DNA of 30,690 nt. Origin: a virus. Numbering within the stretch: the stretch's first letter is position 1; each line of letters begins with the position of its first letter. The DNA lies in the IMG/VR virus record IMGVR_UViG_3300027985_001100, positions 1 through 30,690 of that record; one strand, given 5' to 3'. This document shows, one piece after another, positions 6,296 through 30,309 of this stretch. Position numbers and translations under genes: made by a program. Below the pieces are notes generated by a model. That model did no database searches. It saw nothing but the letters and a program-made list of their open reading frames with translations, and had not been told where the DNA came from.

Positions 6296-6339
6296 CAGAA
6301 AAAAAGTTGAACAACAACAGCAGGTTCACGGGGTAACAG

Positions 6340-9083: not shown

Positions 9084-9134
9084 CGCCCGAGGCGCACGAA
9101 TGGTGCGTCTCGGGCGTCTCGGGCGTCTCGGGCG
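9084..9134 (+). terminator. Strong stem-loop with three tandem 9-nt repeats
   Basis: The arms 9084-9097 and 9103-9116 pair over 14 positions with a single G-U wobble around a GAATG loop. The right arm includes the first of three exact tandem copies of TCTCGGGCG (9108-9134), so the left arm could pair with any of the three. There is no long U run after it, so a classic intrinsic terminator is doubtful. It may attenuate or stabilise mRNA at the junction between the packaging genes and the portal. Confidence 0.5.
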
Positions 9135-9186
9135 GGTTCTGCAGTAGCTGGTTGTCAGCCATCGATACCTGACCAGCAGTCGCCCC

Positions 9187-14357: not shown

Positions 14358-14837
14358 ATGCACACCTCGACCATCATCAACGCGATCGTCGAGACGCTGA
14401 ACTCGGGGCGGGCGACGCCGATCCCGTCGTTCATCGGCGCGCAGCACCTGGACGCGCACGGCACTCCGCCGAGGCTCGTGTGGGTGCCGACCGTCGATTC
14501 ATTCGGCGACGCGAAGAACCACGGCATCTCGCCGGCATCGGTGAAGACTCGCTACGCCGGCTACGACTGCGCGATCTGGTGCGCATCGATCGACGACTGC
14601 GAGCAGATGCTTGCTGACCTGATGCTCGCGCTCGACGCCCAGCGCGACTCGAACGGCCTTCCGGTGCGCGGCTTCTACAGGATCGGCGGGCTGAACTGGA
14701 TCAACGAGCAGGCGCTGATCGCGAAGGGCGCTGCGTGCGATCTCGAGATCACGTTCGAGCTCCCGCTGGTCGCCGCGGCACCGACGACGGCGCCAATCAG
14801 CGAGGTCATTGGAACATGCACGACTCCGAACCCGTAG
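14358..14837 (+). CDS. Tail terminator-like protein (Mu gp37 position)
   Basis: A 159-residue alpha/beta protein: an N-terminal helix (STIINAIVETLN), a strand region RLVWVPTVDSFG, a central YDCAIWCASIDDCEQMLADLMLALD and a C-terminal strand LEITFELPLV. This strand-helix arrangement is that of tail terminator proteins, which cap the tail tube and mediate joining to the head. Mu encodes the DUF1834 protein gp37 here. The sequence similarity is not enough for a firm family name, so the call depends largely on position and fold outline. Confidence 0.65.
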   Translation: MHTSTIINAIVETLNSGRATPIPSFIGAQHLDAHGTPPRLVWVPTVDSFGDAKNHGISPASVKTRYAGYDCAIWCASIDDCEQMLADLMLALDAQRDSNGLPVRGFYRIGGLNWINEQALIAKGAACDLEITFELPLVAAAPTTAPISEVIGTCTTPNP

Positions 14838-15001
14838 CCATCGAGTTCAAGACCGTCGAACAGTGGGCGAGCGAGAAGAGTACACCCGACTGGCTCTTCG
14901 CAGCGGCCAAGGTCGGCAACCGATGGCCGATCGGACGCGAGCTCTCCGAGGCCGAGTACGACGCCGCGATCAAGCGCGCGGCCCACACCACCGCCGGATA
15001 G
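14816..15001 (+). CDS. Small tail-region protein, unknown
   Basis: A 61-residue protein starting at an ATG 22 nt inside the previous gene. It reads EFKTVEQWASEKSTPDWLFAAAKVG, then WPIGRELSEAEYDAAIKRA. The compact W-x(2)-K-x(3)-P-x-WLF-A-AK and the final helix look like a small phage protein found before sheath genes. In Mu-like order this is the place of gp38 (DUF2635), but the sequence does not match that family visibly. Unknown role, perhaps tail assembly. Confidence 0.65.
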   Translation: MHDSEPVAIEFKTVEQWASEKSTPDWLFAAAKVGNRWPIGRELSEAEYDAAIKRAAHTTAG

Positions 15002-15024
15002 CCGGCAGCTTCTGCCAGCCCAGA

Positions 15025-15062
15025 CCTCACGGCGCCGCAGCCCCCTCGGCGCGACGGTGAGG
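15025..15062 (+). other. Stem-loop upstream of the tail sheath gene
   Basis: CCTCAC plus GCGCCG on the left (15025-15037) pair with CGGCGC plus GTGAGG on the right (15047-15062), with a 1/4-nt internal bulge and a 9-nt loop. It lies in the 104-nt leader of the sheath gene and could act as an mRNA stability or processing element. No U run follows. Confidence 0.4.
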
Positions 15063-15105
15063 ATCTGCGCGCTGGCGCCCATTCACTCCTCTCTGCGAGG
15101 CCAGC

Positions 15106-16509
15106 ATGTCGCTCCCCGAAGTCAACATCGCCGTCCAGGATCCCAACCTCGGGATCGTGCCCGAGGCCATTGACGGGATCACCGCGGCCGTGGGCATCTG
15201 CTCGAGCGGCGCGGCGAACGAGGTCCACAACTTCAGCGACAAGCAGGCGCTCAAGGACGCCCTCGGCGTCGGCCCGCTGGTCGAGTACGCGGCGCACCTG
15301 CTCGACGTCGCCGGAGGCCCGATCCGCTGCGTCCGCGCGACCCAGGCGGTTGCCGGCGCGCCGGGCTCGGTCACCAAGAGCGGCTCTGGGCCCACGATGA
15401 CCGTCGCAGGCGATGCCAAGGACGCCTACCAGGTCATCGTCGAGATCGTCACCGGAGGCGTGCTCGGCGTCGGGTCGTTCAAGTACTCGCTCGATGGCGG
15501 CGACACCTACTCGCCTGAGATCGCGCTCCCGAGCGGCGGCACCTATGCGCTGCCGGACACCGGTCTGACGCTGACCTTCCCTGCAGGCACCTACGTCGCC
15601 GAGGAGACCTACTCGTGCTCCTGCACCGCGCCGCTCTATGACGCGACCACGCTGGCCGCCGCGCTCGATGCGCTGCTGGCGAGCCCGCTCGAGTGGCGCT
15701 TCGTCGCGATCGTCGGGCAGGCGGCGAGCGGCGCAGCGTCGGCGACGCTTGCGGGCACCCTCTCGACCAAGATGGCGTCCGCGGCGACCAACTACCGCTA
15801 CGCCCGCGCGATGATGCAGGCCGCCGACGACACCGACGCGAACCTGATCACCGCGTTCTCGGCTTTCGATGACGGCCGCGTGACTGTCGTTGCTGGCCAT
15901 GCCGAGATCGGGAGCTCGATCACCGGCCGCCCCGAGAAGCGCGGCGCTCTCACTGCGGTTGGCGCCCGCGCGGCCAAGGCCCCGGTGCACGAGGACCTCG
16001 GAAGGGTCGCGTCTGGCTCGCTGCCTGGCGTCTCGTCGCTCTACCGCGACGAGCGGGTGAAGCAGGCCCTCGACTCGCAGCGGTTCACGACGCTGCGCAG
16101 CTTCGTCGGCATGAACGGCTACTACATCACCGCCGGCCGCACGATGGCCTCGAAGACGAGCGACTTCCAGCTGCAGCAGAACGGCTTCGTCATCGACAAG
16201 GCCTGCCGCACGCTGCGGAACGCGCTGCTGCCGTACCTCAACGACTCGGTCCGCGTGAACAAGACGACGGGCTACATCCTCGAGGAGGACGCCCAGGCCA
16301 TCGAGCAGGACGTACAGGGGCAGCTCGAGGCCTCGATCATCGCTCCGGGCAACGCGTCGAGCGTCGAGGCCAAGGTGAAGCGCGACGAGAACATCCTCTC
16401 GAGCCAGACCCTGCGCGTCACCGTGTCGGTCGTGCCGCTCGGCTACGCCCGCGCCATCTCTGCCGAGATCGGCCTGAAGAACCCCGCGCTGACGCCGACG
16501 GCTCAGTAG
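15106..16509 (+). CDS. Tail sheath protein (Mu gpL-like)
   Basis: A 467-residue contractile sheath subunit. The N-terminal PEVNIAVQDPNLGI and ITAAVGICSSGAANEVHNF are typical, as is the C-terminal part: RTMASKTSDFQLQQNGFVIDKACRTLRNALLPYLND, then KTTGYILEEDAQAIEQDV and RVTVSVVPLGYARAISAEIG. Residues about 108-178 are an inserted beta domain (SLDGGDTYSPEIALPSGG and FPAGTYVAEETYS), related to one in the baseplate J protein. The sheath contracts to drive the tube through the envelope and shows that the phage is a myovirus. It is slightly shorter than Mu gpL. Confidence 0.92.
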   Translation: MSLPEVNIAVQDPNLGIVPEAIDGITAAVGICSSGAANEVHNFSDKQALKDALGVGPLVEYAAHLLDVAGGPIRCVRATQAVAGAPGSVTKSGSGPTMTVAGDAKDAYQVIVEIVTGGVLGVGSFKYSLDGGDTYSPEIALPSGGTYALPDTGLTLTFPAGTYVAEETYSCSCTAPLYDATTLAAALDALLASPLEWRFVAIVGQAASGAASATLAGTLSTKMASAATNYRYARAMMQAADDTDANLITAFSAFDDGRVTVVAGHAEIGSSITGRPEKRGALTAVGARAAKAPVHEDLGRVASGSLPGVSSLYRDERVKQALDSQRFTTLRSFVGMNGYYITAGRTMASKTSDFQLQQNGFVIDKACRTLRNALLPYLNDSVRVNKTTGYILEEDAQAIEQDVQGQLEASIIAPGNASSVEAKVKRDENILSSQTLRVTVSVVPLGYARAISAEIGLKNPALTPTAQ

Positions 16510-16527
16510 TAGCGCCGGCAGCGCACC

Positions 16528-16546
16528 GGGCCCGCTCTGTGGGCCC
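16528..16546 (+). other. Small hairpin between sheath and tube genes
   Basis: GGGCCC (16528-16533) and GGGCCC (16541-16546) pair around a 7-nt loop in the 66-nt gap after the sheath gene. There is no U run. Similar GC-rich hairpins lie after several other late genes in this window, suggesting a common mRNA-processing or stabilising role. Confidence 0.35.
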
Positions 16547-16575
16547 TCAACTCTCACGACAACCGAGGAGCCACC

Positions 16576-17007
16576 ATGGCGCTCGACTACCCCCTGGTCA
16601 ACGGCCACCGCTACAGCTACGCGTCGATCGAGCTGCGCATGAAGGGCAAGCGGCGCCGCGGGTTCACGGCGATCAACTACTCCACCCGCCGCGAGCACGG
16701 AGACGTCGAGGCCGACGGCGACAGGAAGATCGGCCGCACCGCCGGATTCGTGCGCAACGAGGCGTCTATCACGATGCTCAAGGAGGAGGCCGACGAGCTC
16801 CTGCGCGACCTCGGCGACGAGTACGGCAAGCAGAGCTTCGACGTCATCGCGACCTACTCCGCTGGCGTCGGAACCATCACCGACACGGTCCGCGGATGCT
16901 CGATCTCCTCGGTCGGCAACGCGCACCAGTCGGGCGGAACTGGAGGCCTCGTCGTCGAGCTCGGGCTCAACGTCATGGAGATCCTGCTCAACGGCAAGCG
17001 CATCTAG
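16576..17007 (+). CDS. Tail tube protein (Mu gpM-like)
   Basis: A 143-residue beta-rich protein. Typical tube features are YPLVNGHRYSYASIELRMKGKRRRGFTAINYS at the N-terminus, VEADGDRKIGRTAG, and a final VELGLNVMEILLNGKRI. It follows the sheath and precedes the tail chaperone, the invariant sheath-tube-chaperone-tape order of contractile phages. It would polymerise as hexameric rings forming the DNA conduit. A GAGGAGCC ribosome-binding site precedes the ATG. Confidence 0.88.
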   Translation: MALDYPLVNGHRYSYASIELRMKGKRRRGFTAINYSTRREHGDVEADGDRKIGRTAGFVRNEASITMLKEEADELLRDLGDEYGKQSFDVIATYSAGVGTITDTVRGCSISSVGNAHQSGGTGGLVVELGLNVMEILLNGKRI

Positions 17008-17034
17008 AGCTGGCGTCGCAGCAGATTGAACAAC

Positions 17035-17050
17035 CGCGGCCCCGGCCGCG
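17035..17050 (+). other. Short GC hairpin upstream of the tail chaperone gene
   Basis: CGCGGC (17035-17040) pairs with GCCGCG (17045-17050) over a 4-nt loop, a few bases before the AAGGGGAGC ribosome-binding region of the chaperone gene. It may limit translation, keeping a high tube-to-chaperone ratio, but this is speculative. Confidence 0.3.
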
Positions 17051-17062
17051 AAGGGGAGCACG

Positions 17063-17380
17063 ATGGAAACGAAGAGCAAGTTCGACGAGGCGAAGGTCCA
17101 GAAGCTGCGCGCTGAGCACGGCGAGGTGTTCGAACTGACCGAGGGCGGCGAGACCATCTTGGCGCGGCGCCCGACCCGCGCCGACTGGCGCAAGTTCAAG
17201 GCCGCGCGCGCCGACGACAAGAAGAAGATCGTCGCGCTCGAGGAGGTCTTCGAAGCGTGCCTTCTCCTGCCGGAGCTCGACGAGTTCGATCGGGTGCTCG
17301 AGAGGAAGCCAGCGCTCGCTGACACGTTCGGACAGCTGCTCATCGAGATCGCGGCCGGGGAGGACCCCGAGGGAAAGTGA
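17063..17380 (+). CDS. Tail assembly chaperone, zero-frame product (Mu gp41-like)
   Basis: A 105-residue protein with a FDEAKVQKLRAEHGEVFELTEG start, a basic RPTRADWRKFKAAR segment and a helical end (PALADTFGQLLIEIAAG). Its position between the tube and tape-measure genes is where contractile and non-contractile phages encode a chaperone made as two proteins through frameshifting. The last sense codons form GGGAAAG followed at once by the TGA stop. The chaperone coats the tape measure before tube polymerisation. Confidence 0.85.
   Translation: METKSKFDEAKVQKLRAEHGEVFELTEGGETILARRPTRADWRKFKAARADDKKKIVALEEVFEACLLLPELDEFDRVLERKPALADTFGQLLIEIAAGEDPEGK
17371..17377 (+). promoter_or_regulatory. 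-1 programmed frameshift slippery site GGGAAAG
   Basis: In the zero frame the heptamer reads G GGA AAG and is followed directly by TGA. After a -1 slip the two tRNAs re-pair with GGG and AAA and the ribosome continues GTG ATC TTG into the open -1 frame. GGGAAAG is the heptamer used in lambda G/GT frameshifting. A minor GC stem (CGAGC-GG-GCTCG, 17394-17405) lies downstream. Confidence 0.85.
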
Positions 17381-19318: not shown

Positions 19319-19930
19319 ATGGCCGCTCCGATGTGGGACCAGGGCGGCTCGAACGCTGACCTGGGCGCGCAGTGGGCGCAGCCCGGGCCGTGGCAGTCGG
19401 TTCGCATCGCCGGCGAGCAACTGCCCGGCAAGGCGGAGGTGATTGGCGGCGCCGCAGCTCGGAAGGTGGATGTCAAGCACGCCACGGGCGCCGATGGGGC
19501 GGGCGTCACCGACCGCGGGCTTGAGCCGGCCAGGTTCAAGATCCGCGTCTCGCTGTGGACCGGAGAGCATCTGGCGCGCTGGGAGCGGATCGTCGCGAGG
19601 GTACAGCCGCGGGCGGGGAAGGGCGGGTTGCAGCGGGTCAGCGTTTACCACCCGGCGCTCGCGCAGCTCGGGATTCACCACATCTGCATCGTGCAGGTCT
19701 CCGTGCTGCAGCCTGGCAATGTCCGCGGCGTCTACACGACAGAGATCGATTGCCTGCAGTGGATGCCGCCGGGCAAGGACGTGACCAAGACCGTGAGCAC
19801 CAACTCTCCGTCGCTCACGGATCTCGATGCGTCGAGTTCGAACTATCAGCTTCCGAACGGCAAGTCGGTTCACGTTGCGCCAGAGGCGTCGTCCGTCAGC
19901 CCGCCGAGTGAGACCGAGGCAGCGCCATGA
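19319..19930 (+). CDS. Baseplate/tail adaptor protein (gpN position)
   Basis: A 203-residue protein in the place of the Mu gpN DNA-circularisation/hub protein, but half its length. The core has LPGKAEVIGGAAARKVDVKHATGADGAGVTDRGLEPARFKIRVSLW, W-x-RIVARVQPRAGKGG, and VSVYHPALAQLGI, a pattern seen in small baseplate hub adaptors lacking a LysM domain (XkdP-like). The C-terminal ~60 residues are Ser/Thr/Pro-rich and probably flexible. Overlaps the hub/spike gene by 4 nt (ATGA). Function is inferred from order and general appearance. Confidence 0.6.
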   Translation: MAAPMWDQGGSNADLGAQWAQPGPWQSVRIAGEQLPGKAEVIGGAAARKVDVKHATGADGAGVTDRGLEPARFKIRVSLWTGEHLARWERIVARVQPRAGKGGLQRVSVYHPALAQLGIHHICIVQVSVLQPGNVRGVYTTEIDCLQWMPPGKDVTKTVSTNSPSLTDLDASSSNYQLPNGKSVHVAPEASSVSPPSETEAAP

Positions 19931-21057
19931 GCTTCGCAAGGCTGGCTGATCACCCGGTAATGGGCGCGGTCATCACGATGCCACGGATCGGTGCGTGGAC
20001 CGCCAATGTCGTTGCGGACGCCCAGGAGGACCTGTCCGGCGCCGTCGAGCTGCGGGCCGGAGGCGTTGCTTGGGCCGGGACCGCCGTTCGAACCGGAGTG
20101 GCCCAGGACACGGTGCGCGCCGCGATCGTCGGTGGAGCGGGCGGACTGTCCTTGCAGGTGTCGCCGAAGTTCTACCGCGACACCACCGCTCGGATCGTCG
20201 TCGAGGACATCCTCTCCGCAGTCGGCGAGATGCTCTCTCAAACCTCGGATGCTGCGTTCCTGGGAAAGATGCTGGCTGCCTGGTCGCGAGCCGGCGGCAA
20301 GGCCGGAGCTGCGCTCCGCCAGTTCGTCGAGCCATACGGGGCCGCGTGGCGAGTGCTCGCCGACGGATCGATCTGGGTCGGCCAGGAATCGTGGCCCGAG
20401 GCGCAGCTCGAGCACGAGCTCGTCGCCGAGGACCCGCGGGCGGGCTGGGTGGAGATCGCGACCGAGGACCTGTCGCTGACACCCGGGACGATGTTCCGCG
20501 GGCGCATGGTCGCGAAGGTCGAGCACCGCGTCTCGGCGACGAGCGTGCGCACCAGGTGCTGGTTCGCTGACGCTCAAGCCGAGGATCCTGCGGAGGCCAT
20601 CGCGGCGCTCGTGCGGCACCACACCGCGGGAAGCCTCTACCTCGGGCAGTTCCCGGCGCGAGTGGTGGCGCAAAACGGCGACGGCAGCCTTGAGCTACAG
20701 CCGGACGACTCGCGTTTGCCGGGCATGTCCAAGGTGCCCATCCGCTACGGCCTGCCTGGAGTCACGGTGGAGGTCCTCGCCGGCGCTCGCGTCGCGATCG
20801 AGTTCGAGGCCGGGGATCCGGCGAGACCGGTGGCCACGGTGTGGGAGAGCGGAACGGTGACGAAGATGGTGATCGCGTCCGCTGCCGAGGTGACCGTGAA
20901 CGCTCCGACCGTGAACGTGGGCGGCGCGACCTCGGCGGTGAAGCTCGCCGACGGCACGCCGGTCCAGGGTGTTGCTCGGATTGGCGACCAGGTGCAGGCC
21001 GGGCCGTTCGGCGGAGTCGTCCTGAAGGGTTCGACGCTCGTGACCGCGGGCGGGTGA
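19927..21057 (+). CDS. Baseplate hub-spike fusion (gpD/gp27 + gpV-like)
   Basis: A 376-residue protein. Residues about 1-215 resemble the hub half of gpD/gp27 (RIVVEDILSAVGEML... FVEPYGAAWRVLADGSIWVG). From about 235 a gpV-type OB fold follows (GQFPARVVAQNGDGSLELQPDD, VPIRYGLPGVTVEVLAGARVAIEFEAGDPARPVATVW), then a repetitive V-T-V-N-A-P-T-V-N-V stretch and a glycine-rich end suited to a triple beta-helix needle. In Mu and P2 the hub and spike are separate genes; VgrG proteins fuse them. The trimer would tip the tube and pierce the outer membrane. Confidence 0.8.
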   Translation: MSFARLADHPVMGAVITMPRIGAWTANVVADAQEDLSGAVELRAGGVAWAGTAVRTGVAQDTVRAAIVGGAGGLSLQVSPKFYRDTTARIVVEDILSAVGEMLSQTSDAAFLGKMLAAWSRAGGKAGAALRQFVEPYGAAWRVLADGSIWVGQESWPEAQLEHELVAEDPRAGWVEIATEDLSLTPGTMFRGRMVAKVEHRVSATSVRTRCWFADAQAEDPAEAIAALVRHHTAGSLYLGQFPARVVAQNGDGSLELQPDDSRLPGMSKVPIRYGLPGVTVEVLAGARVAIEFEAGDPARPVATVWESGTVTKMVIASAAEVTVNAPTVNVGGATSAVKLADGTPVQGVARIGDQVQAGPFGGVVLKGSTLVTAGG

Positions 21058-21058
21058 C

Positions 21059-21445
21059 GTGATCAAGGAAGAGCTATCCCAGATCATCTACGACGCCTGG
21101 ATCGCAGACGCCGAACTCGCCGGCATCCTGCACAACGAGGACGGCAGCCCGGTGCATTCGGACATGCTGTGGGCGCTCACCGATGCCATCTCCGATGGCG
21201 TCCTGCAGGCGATCTCGTCTGGTGGGTCTGTCGGTGTTCCGGCGTGGCGATGGGACGTCCTGGCGGGCACTGGCACCGCGTTCACGCTCTCGAAGACGCC
21301 GCTGCCGAACAGCCTGCAGGTCTTCCGAAACGGGCTCCTCGAACTCGGGTGGACCCTGGCCGGGACGACCCTGACGCTCTCCTCGACGCGGACGTCGAAC
21401 GACGCGGACCTGCGCGCCCACTACCAGTACATCGAGCCCACCTGA
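21059..21445 (+). CDS. Tail/fibre appendage protein, unknown
   Basis: A 128-residue protein from GTG 21059, one base after the hub-spike stop. The N-terminal half is helical (KEELSQIIYDAWIADAELAGIL). The C-terminal half is a beta domain (AFTLSKTPLPNSLQVFRNGLLELGWTLAG and LRAHYQYIEPT), a common pattern in phage appendage proteins in which an NG turn connects strands of a small beta-sandwich. It begins an insertion of fibre genes in the baseplate cluster and may link or decorate the fibre encoded next. Confidence 0.65.
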   Translation: MIKEELSQIIYDAWIADAELAGILHNEDGSPVHSDMLWALTDAISDGVLQAISSGGSVGVPAWRWDVLAGTGTAFTLSKTPLPNSLQVFRNGLLELGWTLAGTTLTLSSTRTSNDADLRAHYQYIEPT

Positions 21446-21453
21446 GGAACACT

Positions 21454-22947
21454 ATGCTGCGAACCATCTCCATCGCCGCGGCCGCCGTCGCGCTGCTCTT
21501 CGTGTCTCCGGTGCGCGCGCAGCTCACCACCCGTCAGATGCGCACCGTCGGGACTCCGACCTCGATCCCTGCCGCGAGCGCGAGCAATGGCGCGAGCGAC
21601 AGCGTCGCCCGCGTCGACCACGCGCACACGTGCTCGATCGCGAACGCGAGCCAGGCCGGGTGCGTGAGCGCGGCGGACTGGTCGAAGTTCAACGGAAAGG
21701 AAAGCGTGCTCACGTTTTCCGACGGGTTGACGCGCGCGACCAACTCGGTGGCCTGCGACGACGCCGCGCTGCTCGCGAAAGGATGCGTCACCAGCGCCGC
21801 ACAGACAATCGGCGGCGAGAAGACATTCGCCGGAGGGATCAGGACGCAGACCATCACCGGAAACAGCGGACTCAACATCGCGAGTTCTGGCAGTTCCGCA
21901 CTGACGTTCGATTCGGCGTCGTCCTCCATCGGTATTGGGGACGGAACAACCTCGATTGCATGGGGACCGAACAGCGCCGGAAAGTTCAGCATCGACCTGT
22001 CGAGCAAGGACATCGGCGAGTCCACCCTCGCAGTCACAAACACCGCATGGACGTCTGAGGCGTCCGGCTTCACGACCGACCTCGACATCGAGCACGGTGA
22101 CCTGGAGGTTTGCTCGGTGCAGCGGATTGCGTGCGACGGGTCCGCCTCGCTCGGGGCCACGAGCACTGGGGCACTCACTGCCGATGAGGTCTATTCCGGG
22201 TACGCCGAGCTTGGATCCGTCTACGTGGACAATCTCTCGGTGTCTACCTGGCCTGACCACTCCCACACCAATTCGACGACGGGTGGAAAGCTCTCCATAG
22301 CCTCAGCCACAACTGGCACCCTCACCTATGACCGAGGCGGCACCGGAGGGGTGAACTACCCCTACGCCGGCCGCGTGGCCTATGGCACCGGGGGGGCGAT
22401 CTCCTACACCGCCCAGGGAACCGCCGGGAAGCCTCTCCTCAGCAACGCTACGAACGCCCCCTACTTCGGCACGCTGGGCTATTCAGGAGGCGGGACCGGA
22501 TCGACGTCAGCACCAACTGCAGGCGGAGTCGTGTACGGCACCGGCTCGGAGATGGCGACCACATCCGCTGGATCCAGCGGACAGCTGCTCAAGAGCAACG
22601 GCAGCAGCGCGCCGAGTTGGGATGGAGACACAGCTTGGACCTACGTTTCGTCATTCTATAACTCGTGGACCAACTATGACTCGACCGAGTCGACGTGGGC
22701 GCATGCCAAGTATCGCAAAACCGCAGACGGTACCGTCTACCTCACCGGGCTAATCAAGAGTGGAACGATCGGATCGATCGCCTTCTACCTCCCGGCGGGT
22801 TACCGGCCGGGGAAATCGAAGAGCTGGGTCGTCGAATCGAACGGAGAATTCAGCTTCGTCCGTGTCGCCGCGTCCGGGGCCGTGACGCCAGCATTGGGCA
22901 ACAACGCCTTCATCTACCTCGACCTGTCTTTCGTCGCGGAGCTGTAG
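21454..22947 (+). CDS. Tail fibre with signal peptide and paired cysteines
   Basis: A 497-residue protein; the frame is open to 21169 but the ATG at 21454 follows TGAGGAAC and the previous stop. It begins with a textbook Sec signal peptide (MLRTISIAAAAVALLFVSPVRA, then Q), cleavage expected after Ala22. Cysteines come in pairs: C60/C70, C101/C111, C220/C227. The middle has fibre-type Ser/Thr/Gly beta repeats, and residues about 290-395 contain two copies of the GGTG...AG-x-V-x-YGTG...GQ-x-L-x-SN-x(3)-AP repeat common in tail fibres. The C-terminal ~100 residues (TYVSSFYNSW...) are a beta domain likely to bind the receptor. A signal peptide on a fibre is unusual. Confidence 0.8.
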   Translation: MLRTISIAAAAVALLFVSPVRAQLTTRQMRTVGTPTSIPAASASNGASDSVARVDHAHTCSIANASQAGCVSAADWSKFNGKESVLTFSDGLTRATNSVACDDAALLAKGCVTSAAQTIGGEKTFAGGIRTQTITGNSGLNIASSGSSALTFDSASSSIGIGDGTTSIAWGPNSAGKFSIDLSSKDIGESTLAVTNTAWTSEASGFTTDLDIEHGDLEVCSVQRIACDGSASLGATSTGALTADEVYSGYAELGSVYVDNLSVSTWPDHSHTNSTTGGKLSIASATTGTLTYDRGGTGGVNYPYAGRVAYGTGGAISYTAQGTAGKPLLSNATNAPYFGTLGYSGGGTGSTSAPTAGGVVYGTGSEMATTSAGSSGQLLKSNGSSAPSWDGDTAWTYVSSFYNSWTNYDSTESTWAHAKYRKTADGTVYLTGLIKSGTIGSIAFYLPAGYRPGKSKSWVVESNGEFSFVRVAASGAVTPALGNNAFIYLDLSFVAEL

Positions 22948-22949
22948 CC

Positions 22950-23003
22950 ATGAGCGCGACCCGACTCGAGTTTGACAACGCCACCGTGTACCTCGACCGA
23001 TGA
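22950..23003 (+). CDS. 17-residue leader or relic peptide before the wedge gene
   Basis: ATG 22950 opens a 17-codon frame (MSATRLEFDNATVYLDR) whose TGA overlaps the ATG of the wedge gene (ATGA, 23000-23003). No other ribosome-binding site is visible immediately before that gene, so translation of this short frame may deliver ribosomes by coupling. It could equally be the remnant of a gene truncated when the fibre genes were inserted. Confidence 0.4.
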   Translation: MSATRLEFDNATVYLDR

Positions 23004-23386
23004 CCGACTTCGGCTCGGACATCTCCACGTTCCCAGATCTCGATCCGTCGTTCGTGGCGCTCTCCGGTTCACGTGTCGTCCTGGAGGCCTGTGCGCGTCG
23101 GCTTCAGACGCCACGCGGTGCGCTGTGGGCCCACTCGGACTACGGACTCGACCTGCGCGCGTGGCTGAACGAGTCATTCGACGCTGGGGCGCAGGCCGCG
23201 ATGGCGGCTGCCATCGAGGCAGAGCTCGAGAAGGACGAGCGCGTCCTCGGCGTGCAGGTCGCGGCTTCGCTCGACCACCGAACGAATGCGCTCCGGATCG
23301 CGGTCTCGATCGCCACCTCGGATGGTCCCTTTCGTCTGGTGCTCTCCGTCTCTCGAATCTCCGTCGACGTGCTCCTCGCCGAGTAG
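23000..23386 (+). CDS. Baseplate wedge protein, Mu gp46/gp25-like
   Basis: A 128-residue protein with a gp25/GpW-like pattern: an N-terminal acidic part, GSRVVLEACARRLQTPRGALWAHSDYGLDLRAWLN (about 24-58), then IEAELEKDERVLGVQV and GPFRLVLSVSRISVDVLL. The TPRG-x-LW-DYG motif is diagnostic for the gp25-like lysozyme-fold wedge family, in which enzymatic activity is usually absent. It connects the tube end to the baseplate. It precedes the J protein by 3 nt, as in Mu. Confidence 0.88.
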   Translation: MTDFGSDISTFPDLDPSFVALSGSRVVLEACARRLQTPRGALWAHSDYGLDLRAWLNESFDAGAQAAMAAAIEAELEKDERVLGVQVAASLDHRTNALRIAVSIATSDGPFRLVLSVSRISVDVLLAE

Positions 23387-23389
23387 CCC

Positions 23390-24778
23390 ATGCTCTCTCT
23401 CTCCCAACTCATCGCCCCGCGGTCCAAGCAGGCGCTGCTCGCGCGTCGCATCCAGGCGCTGCAGGGCATCGGCTTCGTGCGCCACCAGGGCACCGGGCTC
23501 CCTGTAGTCGAGGCGACCGGGGTCGCACTGGTCGAGGCCGCAGTCGTCCTCGAGGTCATCGCTGGAGGCGCTCCAGGGGCCGCCACCTTCCGCAGCAGCG
23601 TGGACGGCGGCGCGACTTGGGGCTCGACAGCGTTGATTCCGGCCAGCGGGAACTACATGCTCTCCGGCACAGGAGCGATCGTGCGCTTCGGCGCTGGCTC
23701 CTACATCGCCGGGGACCTGTACTCCTTCGGTCTCGCCGTTCCGACGTTCCCGACCGCCGCGTGGCAGCCGGGCTCGGTTCCGCTGACGCTCCTCGAGGTC
23801 GAGTCGCTCGCGGCCGAGGACCTCGACCAGCTGGTCTCGAAGGTCGCCGGAAGCGGGTTCGTCGACTACGCCTCTGGCGCATGGCTCGACATGCTTGCCG
23901 AGAGCCTCTACTCGCTCGAGCGCATCCAGGCGAGCTACACGCGCGGCACTCGCGCGCTCTCAGCGCTGGCGACCTCTGGCCCTCACGCCATCGCCGTTGG
24001 GCAGCTCTGGGCGACGACGGCGTCGGGGCGGCGGTTCACCAACACGACCGGCGGCACGCTCATCGCCGGCGGGACGCTCGCGCTCGAGTGGAGGGCCGAG
24101 TCTCCCGGCTACGCATGGAACGTCTCCTCGGCGGACGCGCTCTCGCTGGTGACGGCGCTGCCCGGCGTGTCGTTCGCGGCCGAGTCCGGAGGTCCGACCG
24201 ATTGGATCAGCGAGTTCGGCGACGACACCGAGCCGGACGCGCAGCTGCGCGCGAGGTGCAAGGGCAGGTGGTCGGAGCTCGGGATTGCCACGATTGAGAC
24301 CTTCGAGACCTGGGCCCGCGCGTCGGCTACTGGCAACCGGAAGGTCAAGACGCTCGAGGATCCGGACGTGCCAGGGCGCGTGCTCGTCTACGTCGCCCCG
24401 GAGATCGGCGGGACTGCCAACGCCGCTGCGGCGCAGGAGTACATCGATCTGCGCGCGCCGCTCACCTCCACCGCAGTGGTGGCCGAGGCTGCGTCGGTCG
24501 AGGTCTCGATCGTCGGCACCGTTCAGGTCTCCGCGGGCTACACCGAGTCCGCGAGAGCGGCCGCGGTCGCCGCGCTGACCGACCTCTTCGACGCGCTGCC
24601 GATCGGCGGGACCGCTGGCGGCGTTCTGTCGCACGAGCGGATCGCTGGGCACATTGCGGTGCAGGCCGGAATCGTCAACCTCGCGCTGAGCAGCCCGGCC
24701 GCTGACGTCGCGATCGGCGCTTCCGAGAACGCGACGTTCGATCCCGAGCTGCCCGGGCTGACCTGGATCGAGGTGTGA
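23390..24778 (+). CDS. Baseplate J protein (Mu gp47-like)
   Basis: A 462-residue protein. After an N-terminal helix, residues about 50-125 hold a beta domain (VDGGATWGSTALIPASGNY, GAGSYIAGDLYSFGL) similar to that inserted in the sheath. The J core follows: GSGFVDYASGAWLDMLAESLYSLERIQA, then TLIAGGTLALEWRAESPGYAWNV, a DWISEFGDDTEPDAQLRARCKGRWSELG motif (about 266-295) and a C-terminal VEVSIVGTVQVSAGYTESARAA with ALPIGG. Baseplate J (gp6/gp47) forms the wedge ring that triggers sheath contraction. It overlaps the next gene by 4 nt (GTGA). Confidence 0.9.
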   Translation: MLSLSQLIAPRSKQALLARRIQALQGIGFVRHQGTGLPVVEATGVALVEAAVVLEVIAGGAPGAATFRSSVDGGATWGSTALIPASGNYMLSGTGAIVRFGAGSYIAGDLYSFGLAVPTFPTAAWQPGSVPLTLLEVESLAAEDLDQLVSKVAGSGFVDYASGAWLDMLAESLYSLERIQASYTRGTRALSALATSGPHAIAVGQLWATTASGRRFTNTTGGTLIAGGTLALEWRAESPGYAWNVSSADALSLVTALPGVSFAAESGGPTDWISEFGDDTEPDAQLRARCKGRWSELGIATIETFETWARASATGNRKVKTLEDPDVPGRVLVYVAPEIGGTANAAAAQEYIDLRAPLTSTAVVAEAASVEVSIVGTVQVSAGYTESARAAAVAALTDLFDALPIGGTAGGVLSHERIAGHIAVQAGIVNLALSSPAADVAIGASENATFDPELPGLTWIEV

Positions 24779-25737
24779 TCGTGGGCTACCGCGACTACCA
24801 GGGGAAAGTCAGCCCGCCGTGGCTGCGTGGACCGTTTGGCGCGGCATGGGCGCGCGCCTCTGGCGACACCCGCGACGAGCTCGTCGATCGGCTCAAGCTG
24901 GCGGTCAAGGCGCGGATGCCGGACTACGCGCCGCCGGACGCCATGCAACTCATCGGCGCCGAGCGCGGTGTCGAGCGGCTTCCCGGGGACACCGACGAGG
25001 AATATGCCTCGCGGGTTCGGAACGTCTGGGAGATGCGCCGGTGGGCCGGAACGCCTTTCGGTCTGCTGCTCGCCCTCGCGGATATCGGCTATCCGGCGGC
25101 TCGATTGATGATCCATCGCGGGCGCGACTACTACCTCGACGCCGGGGCGCTCGAGACGTGCCTGATGGACTCCGAGCGCTGGGTGATGGACGCGCGCGAG
25201 TCGTTCTGGTCGCAGTTCCAGGTGCTGCTGCCTGCGCCGCACCCGTGGGCGACCAGCGTCGACCTCGATCCGAGCACCGATGGCACAGCGACGCTTACGC
25301 CTGGCGGAACCCCGGACGCTCCATGGGTCGTCGAGGTGTTCTGCACAACCGGAGGCACGGTCGCCAGCGGTCTCGCGCGGCTGACCGTAACCGTCGGAGG
25401 ATCAGCCGACTACGACATTCCAGTGCCCGCGCACGGCATCGTGTCCTTCAATAACATCGGGCTCGGCTTCGCGTCCGGAGTCGAGTGCACGATCGAGGGA
25501 ACGCTGGTTGCTGGCGATTCCTGGGCGTGGACCTCTGGCGTGTTCCCGGACCAGGCCTCGCAGGACGTCGAGCGGCTGCGGCGCGTGATTCGTCGGTGGA
25601 AGCCGGCGTTCGCGACCTGCCGCGGGATCGTTGTGCAGACGGCCGGGGACCTCTTCGGGTTCCGGCACAGGACGTTCGGAACAGCTGGGGCGCTCGGAGA
25701 GAGCGCATCGCACAACCGAGTCATCTGGTCGGCGTAG
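24775..25737 (+). CDS. Tail protein I-like baseplate wedge (Mu gp48 position)
   Basis: A 320-residue protein, longer than Mu gp48 or P2 gpI (about 180-190). The gpI-like part (residues 1-165: LPGDTDEEYASRVRNVWEMRRWAGTPFGLLLALADIGY) is interrupted by a beta-rich insert at about 172-262 (WVVEVFCTTGGTVASGLARLTVTVG, LVAGDSWAWTS) and resumes with VERLRRVIRRWKPAFATCRGIVV. The insert has an I-G-x-GFASG-x-E beta pattern that is distantly like the sheath and J domains. The protein connects wedge and fibre. GTG 24775 overlaps the J stop; a GTG at 24781 is an alternative start. Confidence 0.8.
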   Translation: MIVGYRDYQGKVSPPWLRGPFGAAWARASGDTRDELVDRLKLAVKARMPDYAPPDAMQLIGAERGVERLPGDTDEEYASRVRNVWEMRRWAGTPFGLLLALADIGYPAARLMIHRGRDYYLDAGALETCLMDSERWVMDARESFWSQFQVLLPAPHPWATSVDLDPSTDGTATLTPGGTPDAPWVVEVFCTTGGTVASGLARLTVTVGGSADYDIPVPAHGIVSFNNIGLGFASGVECTIEGTLVAGDSWAWTSGVFPDQASQDVERLRRVIRRWKPAFATCRGIVVQTAGDLFGFRHRTFGTAGALGESASHNRVIWSA

Positions 25738-25755
25738 CCCGGCCTCGGAGAGAGC

Positions 25756-26661
25756 ATGTCCCACGACTACAACGGCAACGCTGCAGGCATCTCGGCGCAC
25801 GATGCGCCCGTCATCACCGCCCACGACGACGCCGACCAGTTCAGCGCGGCGGTCGCGAACGCGCCGCTGCAGCAGCTTGCGGACATGCTCGCGTTCCTCC
25901 AGACGAACGCGGCGCTCCGCGGCGCGCTCGAGACGGCGCTCTTCTCGGTCGCCGGCGACACGACTGCCGTCATGCAACTCGGCGGCGCGCCATCGACGCG
26001 CAAGCTGAAGCTCCAGCTCGACGGTGTCGAAACCCACACGCGCTTCTACGTGCTGACCAGCGGCGCACTTGAGATCACCACCAACGCGGCTTGGAGCGGC
26101 AGCCAGTGGGTTCGCGACCAGGCCGGCAACGCGAGCAAGCTCGCCATCGGCTTCGGGTCGTTCGCGTTCTACGCCTACCCGGCGGCCAGTGCGTCGCCGT
26201 TCTCCGACTCGGCCTGGCAGAGCAAACTGCAGTTCCCGACCGACGGGCGGTTCGCGTTCACCGGGACGACCACGGGGGCGGCAGGGTCGAACCCGCCGGC
26301 GAACACGGCGATGGCGAACACGCTGGTGGCGAAGAACATGCCGAAGGCGTGGGCCACGATCACGCGAGACGGCGGGACCGGAGTGATCACGGTCAATGAT
26401 GGGTTCAACGTGGCCGGCGTGGCGCTCGTGAACAGCGACCTCGACGTCGAGGTCACGTTCGCCCAGGCGATGGGCAGCGCGAACTACGCCGTTCTGCTGA
26501 ACCACATGCGCACCGCCAGCCATGCGGAACTTGATTTGCAGGCCATTCACGTGAACTCGAAGGCCGCTGACAAGATGACGATCCGCTACGGCAACGGCAT
26601 GACGCTCACCAGCCTGTACTTCAAGATCGATCTGGTCGTGTTTGGAGCGCAGACCACCTAG
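25756..26661 (+). CDS. Tail fibre/appendage protein
   Basis: A 301-residue protein in the fibre position after the gpI-like protein. The N-terminal ~60 residues are helical (DADQFSAAVANAPLQQLADMLAFLQTN), perhaps for attachment, followed by beta-rich segments (KLKLQLDGVETHTRFYVLTSGALEITTNAAW) and a C-terminal domain ending LYFKIDLVVFGAQTT. No signal peptide and no trypsin-like or SGNH motif. It has a CGGAGAGC ribosome-binding site. Its TAG stop overlaps the TAG of the convergent lipoprotein gene. Confidence 0.7.
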   Translation: MSHDYNGNAAGISAHDAPVITAHDDADQFSAAVANAPLQQLADMLAFLQTNAALRGALETALFSVAGDTTAVMQLGGAPSTRKLKLQLDGVETHTRFYVLTSGALEITTNAAWSGSQWVRDQAGNASKLAIGFGSFAFYAYPAASASPFSDSAWQSKLQFPTDGRFAFTGTTTGAAGSNPPANTAMANTLVAKNMPKAWATITRDGGTGVITVNDGFNVAGVALVNSDLDVEVTFAQAMGSANYAVLLNHMRTASHAELDLQAIHVNSKAADKMTIRYGNGMTLTSLYFKIDLVVFGAQTT

Positions 26662-27182
26662 TCAACAGAGATGGACAGGCGCGAAAGGCTCGCAGTGATC
26701 TCCGTCGCGGTATAGGCGTCGTATGGCTCATTCCAGCGATTGCATGCCCCATCGCTGCCGATGTTGAAAACAGTTTCAAAGTGAACCGGAGCGCCAATTT
26801 CAAACGCTCTATTGTTGTCAGCATTCCGCGCATATTTTGCGGCTGACGCAGACTCGGGCAAACCAACGGCGAACTGCGTGCACTGTGCGTCCGAGTACAA
26901 GACGAAGCTGACCACGTCCATACTCGGAACGCACCTGATCTCGCCGTCGACAGTCTTCGCGAACTCGCAGTCGACCCCGAGCTCTGCGTCGTGCCAGCCC
27001 ATGAACAGCTTCGCTCCGTCGTCGGTGCGCCCGACCAACATCCGGATCCGCGTGCCTGACTCCAGCGGCGCGCCGGCGGCCGGCCCCACCGGACCCTGCT
27101 CTCCCTGAGGGCCCGCAGGTCCCTCGACCTGACACGCGGTTGCGACGACGGCTGCGGCTACGGCGATGACGAAGCGCTTCAT
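26658..27182 (-). CDS. Collagen-like lipoprotein, host-like moron
   Basis: A 174-residue lipoprotein. The ATG at 27182 has an excellent AGGAGGG site 5 nt upstream; the open frame extends to 27224 but is not needed. The signal peptide (MKRFVIAVAAAVVATAC) ends in a lipobox-like VATAC, with Cys17 as the acyl site. It continues with a collagen-type GPAGPQGEQGPVGP run (21-34), then RIRMLVGRTDDGAKLFMGWHDAELGVDCEF and CVPSMDVVSF, a pattern I know from abundant lipoproteins of Myxococcota. It is the only right-half gene on the minus strand, with lower local GC (26700-26870). Such morons are often expressed in lysogens and may alter surface or exclude phages. Confidence 0.85.
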   Translation of the reverse strand: MKRFVIAVAAAVVATACQVEGPAGPQGEQGPVGPAAGAPLESGTRIRMLVGRTDDGAKLFMGWHDAELGVDCEFAKTVDGEIRCVPSMDVVSFVLYSDAQCTQFAVGLPESASAAKYARNADNNRAFEIGAPVHFETVFNIGSDGACNRWNEPYDAYTATEITASLSRLSISVD

Positions 27183-27193
27183 GGTGCCCTCCT

Positions 27194-27208
27194 GGCCCGT
27201 GGCGGGCC
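27194..27208 (-). other. Hairpin upstream of the lipoprotein gene
   Basis: GGCCCG (27194-27199) pairs with CGGGCC (27203-27208) around a 3-nt loop, a few bases before the AGGAGGG site of the minus-strand lipoprotein gene. It could modulate translation of that message. No consensus promoter is evident in the 62 nt between it and the rightward gene. Confidence 0.3.
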
Positions 27209-27244
27209 CGATCTGCATTCCCAACTACCAGTGAGGCACAGGCA

Positions 27245-27655
27245 ATGCCAACTCTCCTCATCGTCCTCGGCTTCGTCTGGTCGCTTCCAATCACGCTGCT
27301 CGGCTACCTGCAGGCGCTCCTCGGCGGTGCGCGGTTCATTGGCTTTACGCGCCTCGGAACGGCGCTGTTCGCCAACACGGGGCGGGGCATCATCGGCGTG
27401 TTCTTCGCGCGCCTGCCGGTCGCGGCCTACACCTGGGGCGCGGTCATCGTGCTCGAGCGGCCTGAGCTGAGCGCCAACGCGCGGCTGATCGCGCACGAGC
27501 TCGAGCACACGCGGCAGGCGTTCGTGTTCGGGCCGCTGATGCCTGTCGTCTACGTGATCGCGTCGGCGATGGCCCTCGCGCGAGGCGGGCACTGGTACCG
27601 CGACAACCGCCTCGAGGTCGCCGCGCGGGCGGCGGGCGCTTCCGTCGCCGAGTAG
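27245..27655 (+). CDS. Membrane protein with HExxH metalloprotease motif
   Basis: A 136-residue protein with two hydrophobic N-terminal segments (residues about 3-25, and 46-70), then LIAHELEHTRQ (H84-E85-x-x-H88), another hydrophobic stretch (about 94-108) and a YRDNRLEVAARAAG end that offers a downstream Glu as a possible third ligand, as in gluzincins. The three features suggest a small membrane-anchored zinc peptidase, but no family is certain. It begins the rightward block of lysis genes, beside the lipoprotein moron, so it could be a lysis or conversion factor. The ATG has a weak ribosome-binding sequence. Confidence 0.7.
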   Translation: MPTLLIVLGFVWSLPITLLGYLQALLGGARFIGFTRLGTALFANTGRGIIGVFFARLPVAAYTWGAVIVLERPELSANARLIAHELEHTRQAFVFGPLMPVVYVIASAMALARGGHWYRDNRLEVAARAAGASVAE

Positions 27656-27714
27656 CTCCTCCTCAACAGCATCCACCACGCCGCCCGCGAGCCGGGCGGA
27701 CTGGAGACTCCTGC

Positions 27715-28059
27715 GTGAGCCCCACGACACTCGAGCCCCCTGGCCCGCTGCACCAGACCGGCGAGCAGCCGGCGACGTTCACCGAGAAGAGCCGGTTTTC
27801 CTGGCCGGTCGTGCTCACGATCGCGGGGCTCTCCGTGTCGGCGGTGAGCGGCATCGCGGTCGCGAGCAGCACGGCAAAGAGCGCCGACGAGAAGGCCGTC
27901 GCCGCCGAGTCCTGCTGCAAGAGCGCGACGGGAGACCTTCACCGACACGAGCTGCGCATCCAGCGGGTCGAGGATGCCCAGGCCGCTACGACGAAGACGC
28001 TCGAGCGCATCGAGAAGAAGCTCGACGAGATGCTCGATGCACGGCGAGGCCAGCGATGA
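27715..28059 (+). CDS. Single-TM coiled-coil membrane protein (holin/spanin-like)
   Basis: A 114-residue protein from GTG 27715, preceded by GGAG (about 27702). An unstructured N-terminus leads to one membrane segment (about 30-50, WPVVLTIAGLSVSAVSGIAVA) and then a C-terminal coiled coil (HRHELRIQRVEDAQAATTKTLERIEKKLDEML). This shape matches phage holins of the hemolysin XhlA type or inner-membrane spanins. The stop overlaps the endolysin ATG (ATGA), a strong sign of a lysis role. Topology and exact class cannot be decided from sequence alone. Confidence 0.7.
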   Translation: MSPTTLEPPGPLHQTGEQPATFTEKSRFSWPVVLTIAGLSVSAVSGIAVASSTAKSADEKAVAAESCCKSATGDLHRHELRIQRVEDAQAATTKTLERIEKKLDEMLDARRGQR

Positions 28060-28571
28060 CCCGTCCAGACTTCGTCATCCGCCTCCTGCGCGCGCTCTCC
28101 GGCGTGCCCGTGCTCGAGCAGATCCCCGAGGAGAGCTGGCCGATCGTCGTCGCCCACTCCGCCTACGAGAGCGGGTGGGGGAGCACGCGCCAGGCGCGCG
28201 AGGCGCGGAACGTCTTCAACGTCTCGGCGGGCGCGCGCTGGACCGGACCAACGCTCGCTGGAGGCGACCTCGAGTACTCCGGCGGCCAGGTCCGGAAGAT
28301 CACCCAGCGCTGGCGCTGCTACGCGACCGACACCGAGGCGGTGCGCGACTACCTGCAGCTCCTGCAGCTGCGGCGCTACCAGCCCGCGCACGAGGCCCTC
28401 GTCGCCTGCGACGCCGATCGGTTCATGCGAATGCTCGGCCCGGACCGCGCCGCCGAGCGGCCACCGGTCGGCGGCTACTACACGCTCCCGACCGCGCGCT
28501 ACGCGGCCGAGTTCGCCGCGGTGCTCGAGCAGGTCCGCGCGGCGCTGCCGGCAGAGATGCCGATCGGCTGA
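28056..28571 (+). CDS. Glucosaminidase-type endolysin (GH73-like)
   Basis: A 171-residue protein. The segment AHSAYESGWGSTRQAREARNVFNVS (about 33-57) matches the FlgJ/GH73 signature: catalytic Glu38 in ESGWG and the conserved N-x-FN turn. A Tyr-rich end, GGYYTLPTARYAAEFAAVLEQV, is also seen in the family. It would cleave peptidoglycan glycan strands at lysis. No signal peptide, so it needs a holin or pinholin partner; the upstream overlapping membrane protein and the later holin-like protein are candidates. Confidence 0.88.
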   Translation: MTRPDFVIRLLRALSGVPVLEQIPEESWPIVVAHSAYESGWGSTRQAREARNVFNVSAGARWTGPTLAGGDLEYSGGQVRKITQRWRCYATDTEAVRDYLQLLQLRRYQPAHEALVACDADRFMRMLGPDRAAERPPVGGYYTLPTARYAAEFAAVLEQVRAALPAEMPIG

Positions 28572-28646
28572 CCTTCACCCACAGCCACGCCAGCACCGCC
28601 GCGAGCGCGGCTGGGCCGACGTGTGCCAAACGCAGGAGCACCACCC

Positions 28647-28943
28647 ATGGCAGAGAACCAGAAGCCCACCGTCGGCCGCATCGTTCACTACGTGCTCACG
28701 GACCAGCAGGCCGAGCAGATCAACCGCAGCCGCGACGCAATCGGCGGACGTGGCAACTACGCGCAGGCCGGCGACGAGTTGCCGCTCGTCGTCGTGCGCG
28801 TGTGGCCGGACGAAGGCGGCCCAGGTGTCGACGGTGTCAACGGGCAGGTCTTGCTCGACGGGCCCGACACCCTATGGGTGACCTCCGCGCTCCCCTCGAG
28901 CGGCCCTGTCCCGGGCTGCTGGCACTGGCCCGAGCGCGCGTAG
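28647..28943 (+). CDS. Conserved phage protein in the lysis region, unknown
   Basis: A 98-residue protein starting at ATG 28647 with AGGAG about 9 nt upstream. It reads KPTVGRIVHYVLTDQQAEQINRSR, then GDELPLVVVRVWPDEG, VNGQVLLDGPDTLWVTS, and a terminal GCWHWPER. This compact beta fold is widespread in phage and prophage genomes near lysis or late genes, with no known function. The 75 nt before it show no gene, and the 123 nt after it hold no gene that I can support. Confidence 0.75.
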   Translation: MAENQKPTVGRIVHYVLTDQQAEQINRSRDAIGGRGNYAQAGDELPLVVVRVWPDEGGPGVDGVNGQVLLDGPDTLWVTSALPSSGPVPGCWHWPERA

Positions 28944-29066
28944 CCCCCGGATGCGAGTCGCCGCACGGCGTCCGCTTCGAAACACCGCCCCGGCCCGCGT
29001 GTCGCCCGCTCGACGCTTCCAGCCACCCAACACCTTCACCCGCTGAACCCTGCAAGGAGCTGCACA

Positions 29067-29666
29067 ATGTTCAAGTCTCGCTTCAGTTTCGTGCTCGCCA
29101 TCGTCGCCTGCCTCGCACTGCCCGCCACTGGACTGGCCGTGCCCGCCGGCGCTCAGCTCACCGCGCTCGACGAGGCCGCCGGCGCCGTCGCGGTGCCGCA
29201 CGCTGGCGTCGCTCCGGCCGCCGCCGCCCCCCAGGTCGTCTACCTGGTGCAGCCCGCCCAGGCCGCTGCGGCGCCCGCCGAGTCGACCTCCGCGCTCGCG
29301 GGGCTCGCCGGTGCCCTCGGGAGTGTCGGCGGCTGGGCCGCAATTGTCGGTGCCCTCGCTCTCGTCATCTTCTCGATCTGGAAGGGAGGCAAGGCCGACG
29401 CGGCCAAGATGGCGGTGATCCGCGCGGCCGAGTCGTCCTGGTACATCGCCGAGGCGATCGGCGGGGACGGAGCGCAGAAGTACCAGCTCGCCTGCGCGAA
29501 GTTCCTCCAGATGCTGGGGGTGCAGGACCTCTCTGCCGATGCGAAGGCACTCGCGCTGCGCGACCAGACCTTCGAGACCATGAGCTCGGCGGACAAGGTC
29601 GCCCGGCAGCGCACCCCCGTCGCCGCGGCGGACGCCCGCCCTCAGATGCCCCTCGCCGCGAGCTGA
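29067..29666 (+). CDS. Holin-like membrane protein with signal peptide
   Basis: A 199-residue protein. A Sec-type signal peptide (MFKSRFSFVLAIVACLALPATGLAVPAGA) is followed by an Ala/Pro-rich linker, one membrane segment (about 87-105, VGGWAAIVGALALVIFSIW) and a charged helical part AAKMAVIRAAESSWYIAEAIGGDGAQKYQLACAKFLQMLGVQDLS resembling the cytoplasmic region of LL-H-type holins. A holin-like role is plausible, though the exported N-terminus is odd. AAGGAG lies 9 nt before the ATG. Its TGA is shared with a CTG of the next reading frame. Confidence 0.65.
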   Translation: MFKSRFSFVLAIVACLALPATGLAVPAGAQLTALDEAAGAVAVPHAGVAPAAAAPQVVYLVQPAQAAAAPAESTSALAGLAGALGSVGGWAAIVGALALVIFSIWKGGKADAAKMAVIRAAESSWYIAEAIGGDGAQKYQLACAKFLQMLGVQDLSADAKALALRDQTFETMSSADKVARQRTPVAAADARPQMPLAAS

Positions 29667-29866
29667 GCGAGGGGCTCGACCGTGTCCTCACGACGCCGGT
29701 CGGCCGCGGCTACCTCGACGCAATGCTCGGGGCCTCGACGCTGTCGGGGCCCCTGGCTCGCCTCGAGGCCGGCTGGCACCCGCGCTCCAACTTCGGACTG
29801 TTCGGGTTCGCCGAATGGCGACCCACCGAGTCGAGCGCGGGCGTCGGCGCGCGGCTGACGTTCTGA
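29663..29866 (+). CDS. Small protein probably starting at CTG, coupled to the holin-like gene
   Basis: The frame is convincingly coding: SEGLDRVLTTPVGRGYLDAMLGASTLSG, then LEAGWHPRSNFGLFGFAEWRPTESSAGVGARLTF, a pattern like small phage proteins with a beta-rich, aromatic C-terminus ending in F. No ATG, GTG or TTG is available at the expected start. The CTG at 29663 overlaps the upstream TGA (CTGA, same geometry as the ATGA pairs elsewhere), giving 67 residues. The first ATG, at 29723, would leave 47 and remove the conserved LDRVL part. Its function is unknown; adjacency suggests a lysis or structural accessory. Confidence 0.65.
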   Translation: MSEGLDRVLTTPVGRGYLDAMLGASTLSGPLARLEAGWHPRSNFGLFGFAEWRPTESSAGVGARLTF

Positions 29867-29870
29867 ACCC

Positions 29871-29891
29871 GGGCGGCCCGCGCGGCCGCCC
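29871..29891 (+). terminator. GC hairpin after the CTG-start gene
   Basis: GGGCGGC (29871-29877) pairs with GCCGCCC (29885-29891) around a 7-nt loop, 4 nt after the stop codon at 29866. No U run follows, so termination is uncertain. The next gene begins 22 nt downstream with AGGAG. Confidence 0.4.
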
Positions 29892-29913
29892 AATCACCAC
29901 CAGGAGCACCACC

Positions 29914-30309
29914 ATGAAGAAGCCCTTCGTCTTCCCGCTCGCCGTCATCGCGCTGCTCTTCGCGGCGCCCGCCCACGCGCTCGGTCCCGACGCCGACGGC
30001 CGCACTCCGGTCACCGTGAGCGCGATGCCCGGGGACTGCGTCGGCGCGAACCTCACGACCACCTCGAGCAGCGTCACACTGCAGACCGGCGTGACCTACC
30101 GCGTGATCGCGCTGACTGACCTCTGGCTCAGGCTCGGGGCCACTGCAACGGCCGACGCTCCGAGCGAGTTCTACTCCGCGCGCACCGCGAGGATCTACAC
30201 GTTCGCCGGCAGCGGGGCGGCGCCCGTCGTCCACGGCATCCTGCCTGCCGGCGCGATAGTCCTCGCCGGAGCCGAGGTCCTCTTCTGTCCGATGAGGAAG
30301 GTGCAGTGA
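29914..30309 (+). CDS. Small exported beta protein, unknown
   Basis: A 131-residue protein with a clear Sec signal peptide (MKKPFVFPLAVIALLFAAPAHA, cleavage after Ala22). The mature part is beta-rich (SSVTLQTGVTYRVIALTDLWLRLGATATADAPSEFYSARTARIY) with a GDC and an LFCP cysteine, which might form a disulfide. The WLRLG-ATA pattern is similar to small phage decoration-type proteins, but here with an export signal. It has CAGGAGC before the ATG, and its TGA overlaps the next ATG. No function assigned. Confidence 0.7.
   Translation: MKKPFVFPLAVIALLFAAPAHALGPDADGRTPVTVSAMPGDCVGANLTTTSSSVTLQTGVTYRVIALTDLWLRLGATATADAPSEFYSARTARIYTFAGSGAAPVVHGILPAGAIVLAGAEVLFCPMRKVQ

Follow-up and report, generated by a model that had tools for sequence, protein, structure and literature searches.

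Phage tail fibres are usually regarded as virion parts made in the cytoplasm. What, then, is a fibre-like gene with a Sec leader and closely paired cysteines doing among the baseplate genes of a contractile-tailed phage? The window studied here, the whole virus record of 30690 bases, raises this question through its open reading frame at 21454-22947. The first-pass annotation had described the product as a tail fibre with a cleavable leader and three cysteine pairs, and had proposed that it might be exported to the cell surface to block superinfection, be added to the virion after lysis, or serve the lysogen as an adhesin. We examine below what the sequence, its relatives and a predicted structure say about each of these proposals.

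Results

The window and its phage

The window has a GC content of 68% and the gene order of a Mu-like contractile-tailed phage (Table 1). At its left end, weak matches to an HTH repressor and to an ImmA/IrrE-type peptidase suggest that the phage is temperate. The nearest sheaths to that of the window are from Meiothermus MMP7 (48%), Thermus Riverbug and Myxococcus Mx4 (42%), and from L278 (51%), a contig whose genome belongs to the same family as a Polyangiaceae MAG. Sheath matches occur in 28 of the 108 genomes of that family. The host is likely a myxobacterium, as far as such sequence relationships indicate. Rfam and tRNA scans returned no matches.

Table 1. Features of the window discussed in the text, in order of position.
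Feature	Position	Strand	Remarks
Sheath	15106		Tail gene set
Tape measure	17538		Tail gene set
Spike, Mu gp45-like	19927..21057	+	Left marker of the insert
128-aa protein	21059..21445	+	Same insert, upstream of the exported fibre; no leader, 0 Cys
Ribosome-binding site GAGGA	21444..21448	+	Ahead of ATG 21454
Exported fibre-like protein, 497 aa (P0001)	21454..22947	+	Open reading frame, leader score, fibre-type motifs
Predicted signal peptide MLRTISIAAAAVALLFVSPVRA	21454..21519	+	Cleavage predicted before Q23
C60/C70	21631..21663	+	At both ends of a fibre-type loop, HTCSIANASQAGCVSAADWSKFNGK; the L002 motif is the same but without Cys
C101/C111	21754..21786	+	Same spacing as C60/C70
C220/C227	22111..22134	+	Third Cys pair
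Receptor-binding-head-like domain, residues 385-497	22606..22944	+	C-terminal; matches and predicted structure
Wedge (GPW/gp25), baseplate	23000..23386	+	Right marker of the insert
gpJ	23390		Tail gene set
gpI	24775		Tail gene set
Ordinary tail fibre after gpI	25756..26661	+	No leader, 0 Cys, N-terminal module present

The reading frame and its leader

The ATG at 21454 is preceded by TGAGGA, 6 nt upstream, and no such site stands before the next in-frame ATG (21538). The leader is therefore not an artefact of the chosen start, and the possibility that translation begins further downstream, which had been raised as a way for the whole idea to fail, finds no support. The leader comprises a charged n-region, a hydrophobic h-region and an A-x-A-like c-region, and has no lipobox. 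Superinfection-exclusion lipoproteins of the Llp and Cor type carry their lipobox cysteine straight after the leader; here the residue following VRA is a Q, and that cysteine is absent. The mature N terminus opens directly on fibre-type repeat sequence, and the motifs DHxH and AGxVSxxDWxxFN can be read by eye in the protein (compare L002).

Leaders were scored with a home-made signal-peptide score, run on every start of the open reading frames of at least 100 aa, on both strands of the whole window. The reading frame at 21454 scores 11.07. It is one of five flagged in the window, all of them plausible genes, the others being the three that begin at 29067, 29914 and 30309 and a lipoprotein gene on the minus strand (26658-27182). 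The same score flagged a single one of 269 sheath, spike, wedge, gpJ and gpI reading frames, and so sets the product apart from cytoplasmic phage proteins. Shuffles of the whole protein attained the threshold in 0.2% of cases, and shuffles of the first 44 residues attained its actual score in 2.6%. Sec export of the product can thus be inferred fairly securely, with probable cleavage after VRA, and the gene is presumably expressed late. The cleavable leader ahead of fibre repeats is as the first-pass annotation described it.

The other flagged genes deserve a description of their own. Three leader genes follow one another at 29067-29666, 29914-30309 and 30309-30690, all on the plus strand: the first also has a membrane segment and looks holin-like by eye, the second has two cysteines, and the third, cut by the end of the record, has a close cysteine pair (CRGDFRDGSC) and is perhaps LamG-like by eye. 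The gene at 26658-27182 (minus strand), directly after the ordinary fibre and opposed to it, encodes a putative collagen-like lipoprotein (GPAGPQGEQGP) with a DUF7481 match above cut-off, and is a candidate moron. Between these, at 27245-27655 (plus strand), lies a small protein with an eCIS_core match above cut-off (HELEH motif), unusual for a phage lysis region.

The cysteine pairs

The product contains exactly six cysteines, which form three close pairs with the positions and spacing originally claimed (Table 1). Three pairs as close as these would arise by chance with a probability of about 0.001 in a post hoc test, while cysteine is absent both from the ordinary fibre of the window and from the neighbouring 128-aa protein. 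An even number of cysteines is expected in proteins oxidised outside the cytoplasm, and we remark, again post hoc, that the mature part has an even number in 8 of the 9 leader proteins examined in the window and in related phages. The pairing suggests that the exported fibre probably contains disulfides.

A receptor-binding head

The C-terminal 113 residues have matches among the receptor-binding proteins and minor tail proteins of phages of Bacillus, Streptomyces and Janthinobacterium. Modelled by AlphaFold from an alignment of 52 sequences, they form a beta-sandwich head (pLDDT 94; the full-length product, modelled from its single sequence, gives 32) that matches solved folds with a Foldseek probability of 1.0. 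Its nearest folds are Listeria phage PSA gp15 (Z 13.7) and the Pa223 tail needle (Z 13.2), and the heads of lactococcal phages, including p2 and TP901-1, follow at Z 8.6-9.6. The model supports the view that the C terminus would be a receptor-binding tip.

The rest of the protein has few relatives. Its middle matches no family, neither a Pfam model nor a meaningful NCBIfam model fits the product, and searches with the whole protein found just a weak match to a cysteine-less repeat (L002) besides the head-only matches. The exact cysteine-variant fibre motif, searched in viral contigs, gave unrelated matches only, and gpJ alone as a query had no relatives among viral contigs. A first alignment of the head domain (A2) was too diverse for the contig scan; the PDB sequence matches obtained with it are designed Pizza proteins and were taken as chance.

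Myxococcota chromosomes also encode proteins with a leader-like N terminus and the same head (L142 and L104, the leader of L104 being judged by eye, as the score gave no flag). These exported proteins suggest that the head already works outside cells in the likely hosts, and it may have been traded between phages and Myxococcota.

A fibre-sized insert at one place in the tail operon

Sixty loci carry both the spike and the wedge marker, 42 with the window included and 18 from Myxococcota genomes; for the most part the loci compared are fragments of metagenomic origin on which genes were called mechanically. As a rule spike and wedge are direct neighbours. In 2 of the 60, namely the window and L047, they are separated by a leader-bearing insert the size of a fibre, and neither the 1.6 kb insert of L074 nor the inserts below 1 kb elsewhere hold leader fibres. 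In the window the insert also holds the 128-aa protein, whose first half resembles, by eye, small genes that L086, L084 and L093 have at this position.

The L047 protein (14526-17324) has 932 aa, the leader MKTTLIALLALLASSTAAA and 16 cysteines, most of them closely paired (P = 0.0008). It cannot be aligned with the window's leader fibre, to which it is unrelated in sequence. In the sheath tree the window belongs to a clade of 17 members (support 0.96). L047 lies outside this clade, in a weak pairing with Mx4 (0.66), so that the two phages are not sisters. Two independent insertions of a leader fibre are the simplest reading of these sequences; repeated loss is possible instead. In both phages the ordinary fibre after gpI is kept beside the leader fibre, and in both it is leaderless. 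The L047 phage has further genes with leader and cysteines near its lysis region, as the window does (L144, reverse complement, 9092-9586 and about 10900-11529).

A leader in place of a probable attachment module

The ordinary fibres of this Mu-like group share an N-terminal module (DPRNAASVN...ALANRTxYL), which by its position and conservation would attach the fibre to the baseplate. A model of the module was built from 30 fibres with the window left out. It recovered the window's ordinary fibre with an E value of 1.3e-6, against 0.24 for the exported fibre, and did not find the module in L145 (2023-4710) or L212. The L047 phage has a short ordinary fibre that likewise escapes the model, so that absence of the module is a weak, if suggestive, test for any one sequence. 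The exported fibre also lies in the spike/wedge interval and not directly after gpI, where the ordinary fibres of the group are found.

A comparable arrangement was found in L212, a virus contig with the same head. Its leader tailspike begins at about position 149 of a tail-protein profile, the point at which its leaderless partner spike has some 195 extra N-terminal residues. Judged on these comparisons, the leader is where the attachment part would be, in the window fibre as in the L212 tailspike. In 80 viral loci with this head we count one distinct convincing leader tailspike (L212, identical in DNA to L213) and four weaker leader flags, inside proteins or poorly scored. The L212 tailspike gene (4945-6303) is convergent with a gene that looks acyltransferase-like by eye (6290-7369), with a 14-base overlap, and the contig also has a gene that looks ParA-like by eye.

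Among the fibres that follow gpI in 34 loci, L093 alone has a leader, on the sole fibre seen at its ordinary place. This suggests that a leader protein can be a virion fibre.

Discussion

The reading that we prefer, at a little under an even chance when the fate of the protein is included, is that of an exported, disulfide-stabilised accessory receptor-binding fibre that acts off the virion. The protein would be made late, together with the tail genes, pass through Sec and be cut after VRA. Oxidation in the periplasm would then give a disulfide-braced fibre with a receptor-binding head at its end, which would most likely stay off the virion and get to the cell surface or escape at lysis. There, we conjecture, it might bind its receptor, whether on the infected cell, on debris of that cell or on neighbouring cells. 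It might in this way hide receptors from the phage's own progeny and from competing phages, or stick cells together.

The off-virion part of this account follows from the leader standing where an ordinary fibre has its attachment module. Together with the retention of an ordinary fibre in the window and in L047, the apparent loss of the module favours a virion-independent role rather than docking. Against this, the exported fibre could dock by another site, and its gene sits in the virion morphogenesis operon. One may indeed suppose that the protein is exported, folds with its disulfides in the periplasm and joins the completed baseplate when the cell lyses or afterwards, which would give the virion a second receptor specificity. 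The location of the gene between two baseplate genes speaks for such late docking, as does the L093 leader fibre at the ordinary position after gpI, and the neighbouring 128-aa protein could be an adaptor. However, the mature N terminus is fibre-type repeat at once, without the conserved module, and both phages already have an ordinary fibre. We consider late docking the main rival, though rather unlikely. Of what had first been proposed, the exported, probably disulfide-bonded fibre finds good support and has counterparts in other phages. Sequence alone does not separate the three roles suggested for it, although the comparisons lean away from addition to the virion after lysis, with L093 pulling the other way.

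The proposal of a lysogen adhesin or superinfection-exclusion protein, a case of lysogenic conversion derived from secreted proteins of the host that have this head, would suit the temperate features of the phage (the weak HTH repressor and ImmA-like matches), the head in common with secreted Myxococcota proteins and the acyltransferase-like gene adjoining the L212 leader tailspike; there is also an earlier example of a prophage fibre that works as an adhesin, PblB (PMC4508584). But the genes of the late tail operon are packed tightly round this one, and no sigma-70-type promoter-like site was found in 19800-30690, by a scan that covers GC-rich hosts poorly. This packing among late genes, with no separate promoter seen, makes expression confined to the lysogen less likely, and we regard the lysogen role as improbable. 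Finally, the leader might have no function: the protein would be a cytoplasmic virion fibre, the cytoplasm being the normal assembly site of fibres, with its hydrophobic N terminus as an unusual anchor and fortuitous cysteines. Yet the n-, h- and c-regions are complete, with VRA before Q, the cysteines are paired, and a leader with paired cysteines recurs independently at the same place in L047; a non-functional leader thus seems quite improbable.

Returning to the off-virion fibre, a wider version can be put forward, tentatively and with considerable doubt: unrelated tailed phages may repeatedly put a Sec leader where a fibre or tailspike would have its attachment module, and so produce disulfide-stabilised, virion-independent proteins that bind receptors round the infected cell and mask or clear them. 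A receptor-binding fibre whose anchor has given way to a leader would imply that phages also deploy free receptor binders, which bears on self-exclusion, on the escape of progeny from adsorption to debris, and on the movement of host-range proteins between phages and the secreted adhesins of bacteria. Such a fibre also offers a search rule: a fibre head plus a Sec leader minus the anchor.

How does the exported fibre compare with known systems? The receptor-binding proteins of PSA (gp15), p2 and TP901-1 are made in the cytoplasm and sit on the baseplate, and are not known to carry a leader. The exported fibre has the C-terminal head fold in common with them, by predicted structure, at a sequence identity of just 12-16%. 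The secreted Myxococcota proteins L142 and L104 combine a leader-like N terminus with a homologous C-terminal head, as the exported fibre does, but differ in their chromosomal context, in their middle and in being without the phage DHxH motif. The PblB of pneumococcal and S. mitis prophages is a fibre-like tail-region protein with a C-terminal binding domain that acts at the cell surface, and the pneumococcal protein has a predicted signal peptide (PMC4508584). The likeness, in tail-region gene, leader and C-terminal head, is one of analogy only, and PblB, unlike the exported fibre, has roles in tail morphogenesis and Gram-positive hosts (PMC4508584). The gene of lambda Lom, also an exported protein, lies between tail receptor-binding genes; Lom, however, is no fibre but a beta-barrel of the outer membrane that lysogens express (PMC12309495). 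In open-access papers we found no report in which a leader takes the place of the virion anchor at one fixed locus among the tail genes. PblB and Lom are thus precedents in kind, and the swap of an anchor for a signal at such a locus appears to be new.
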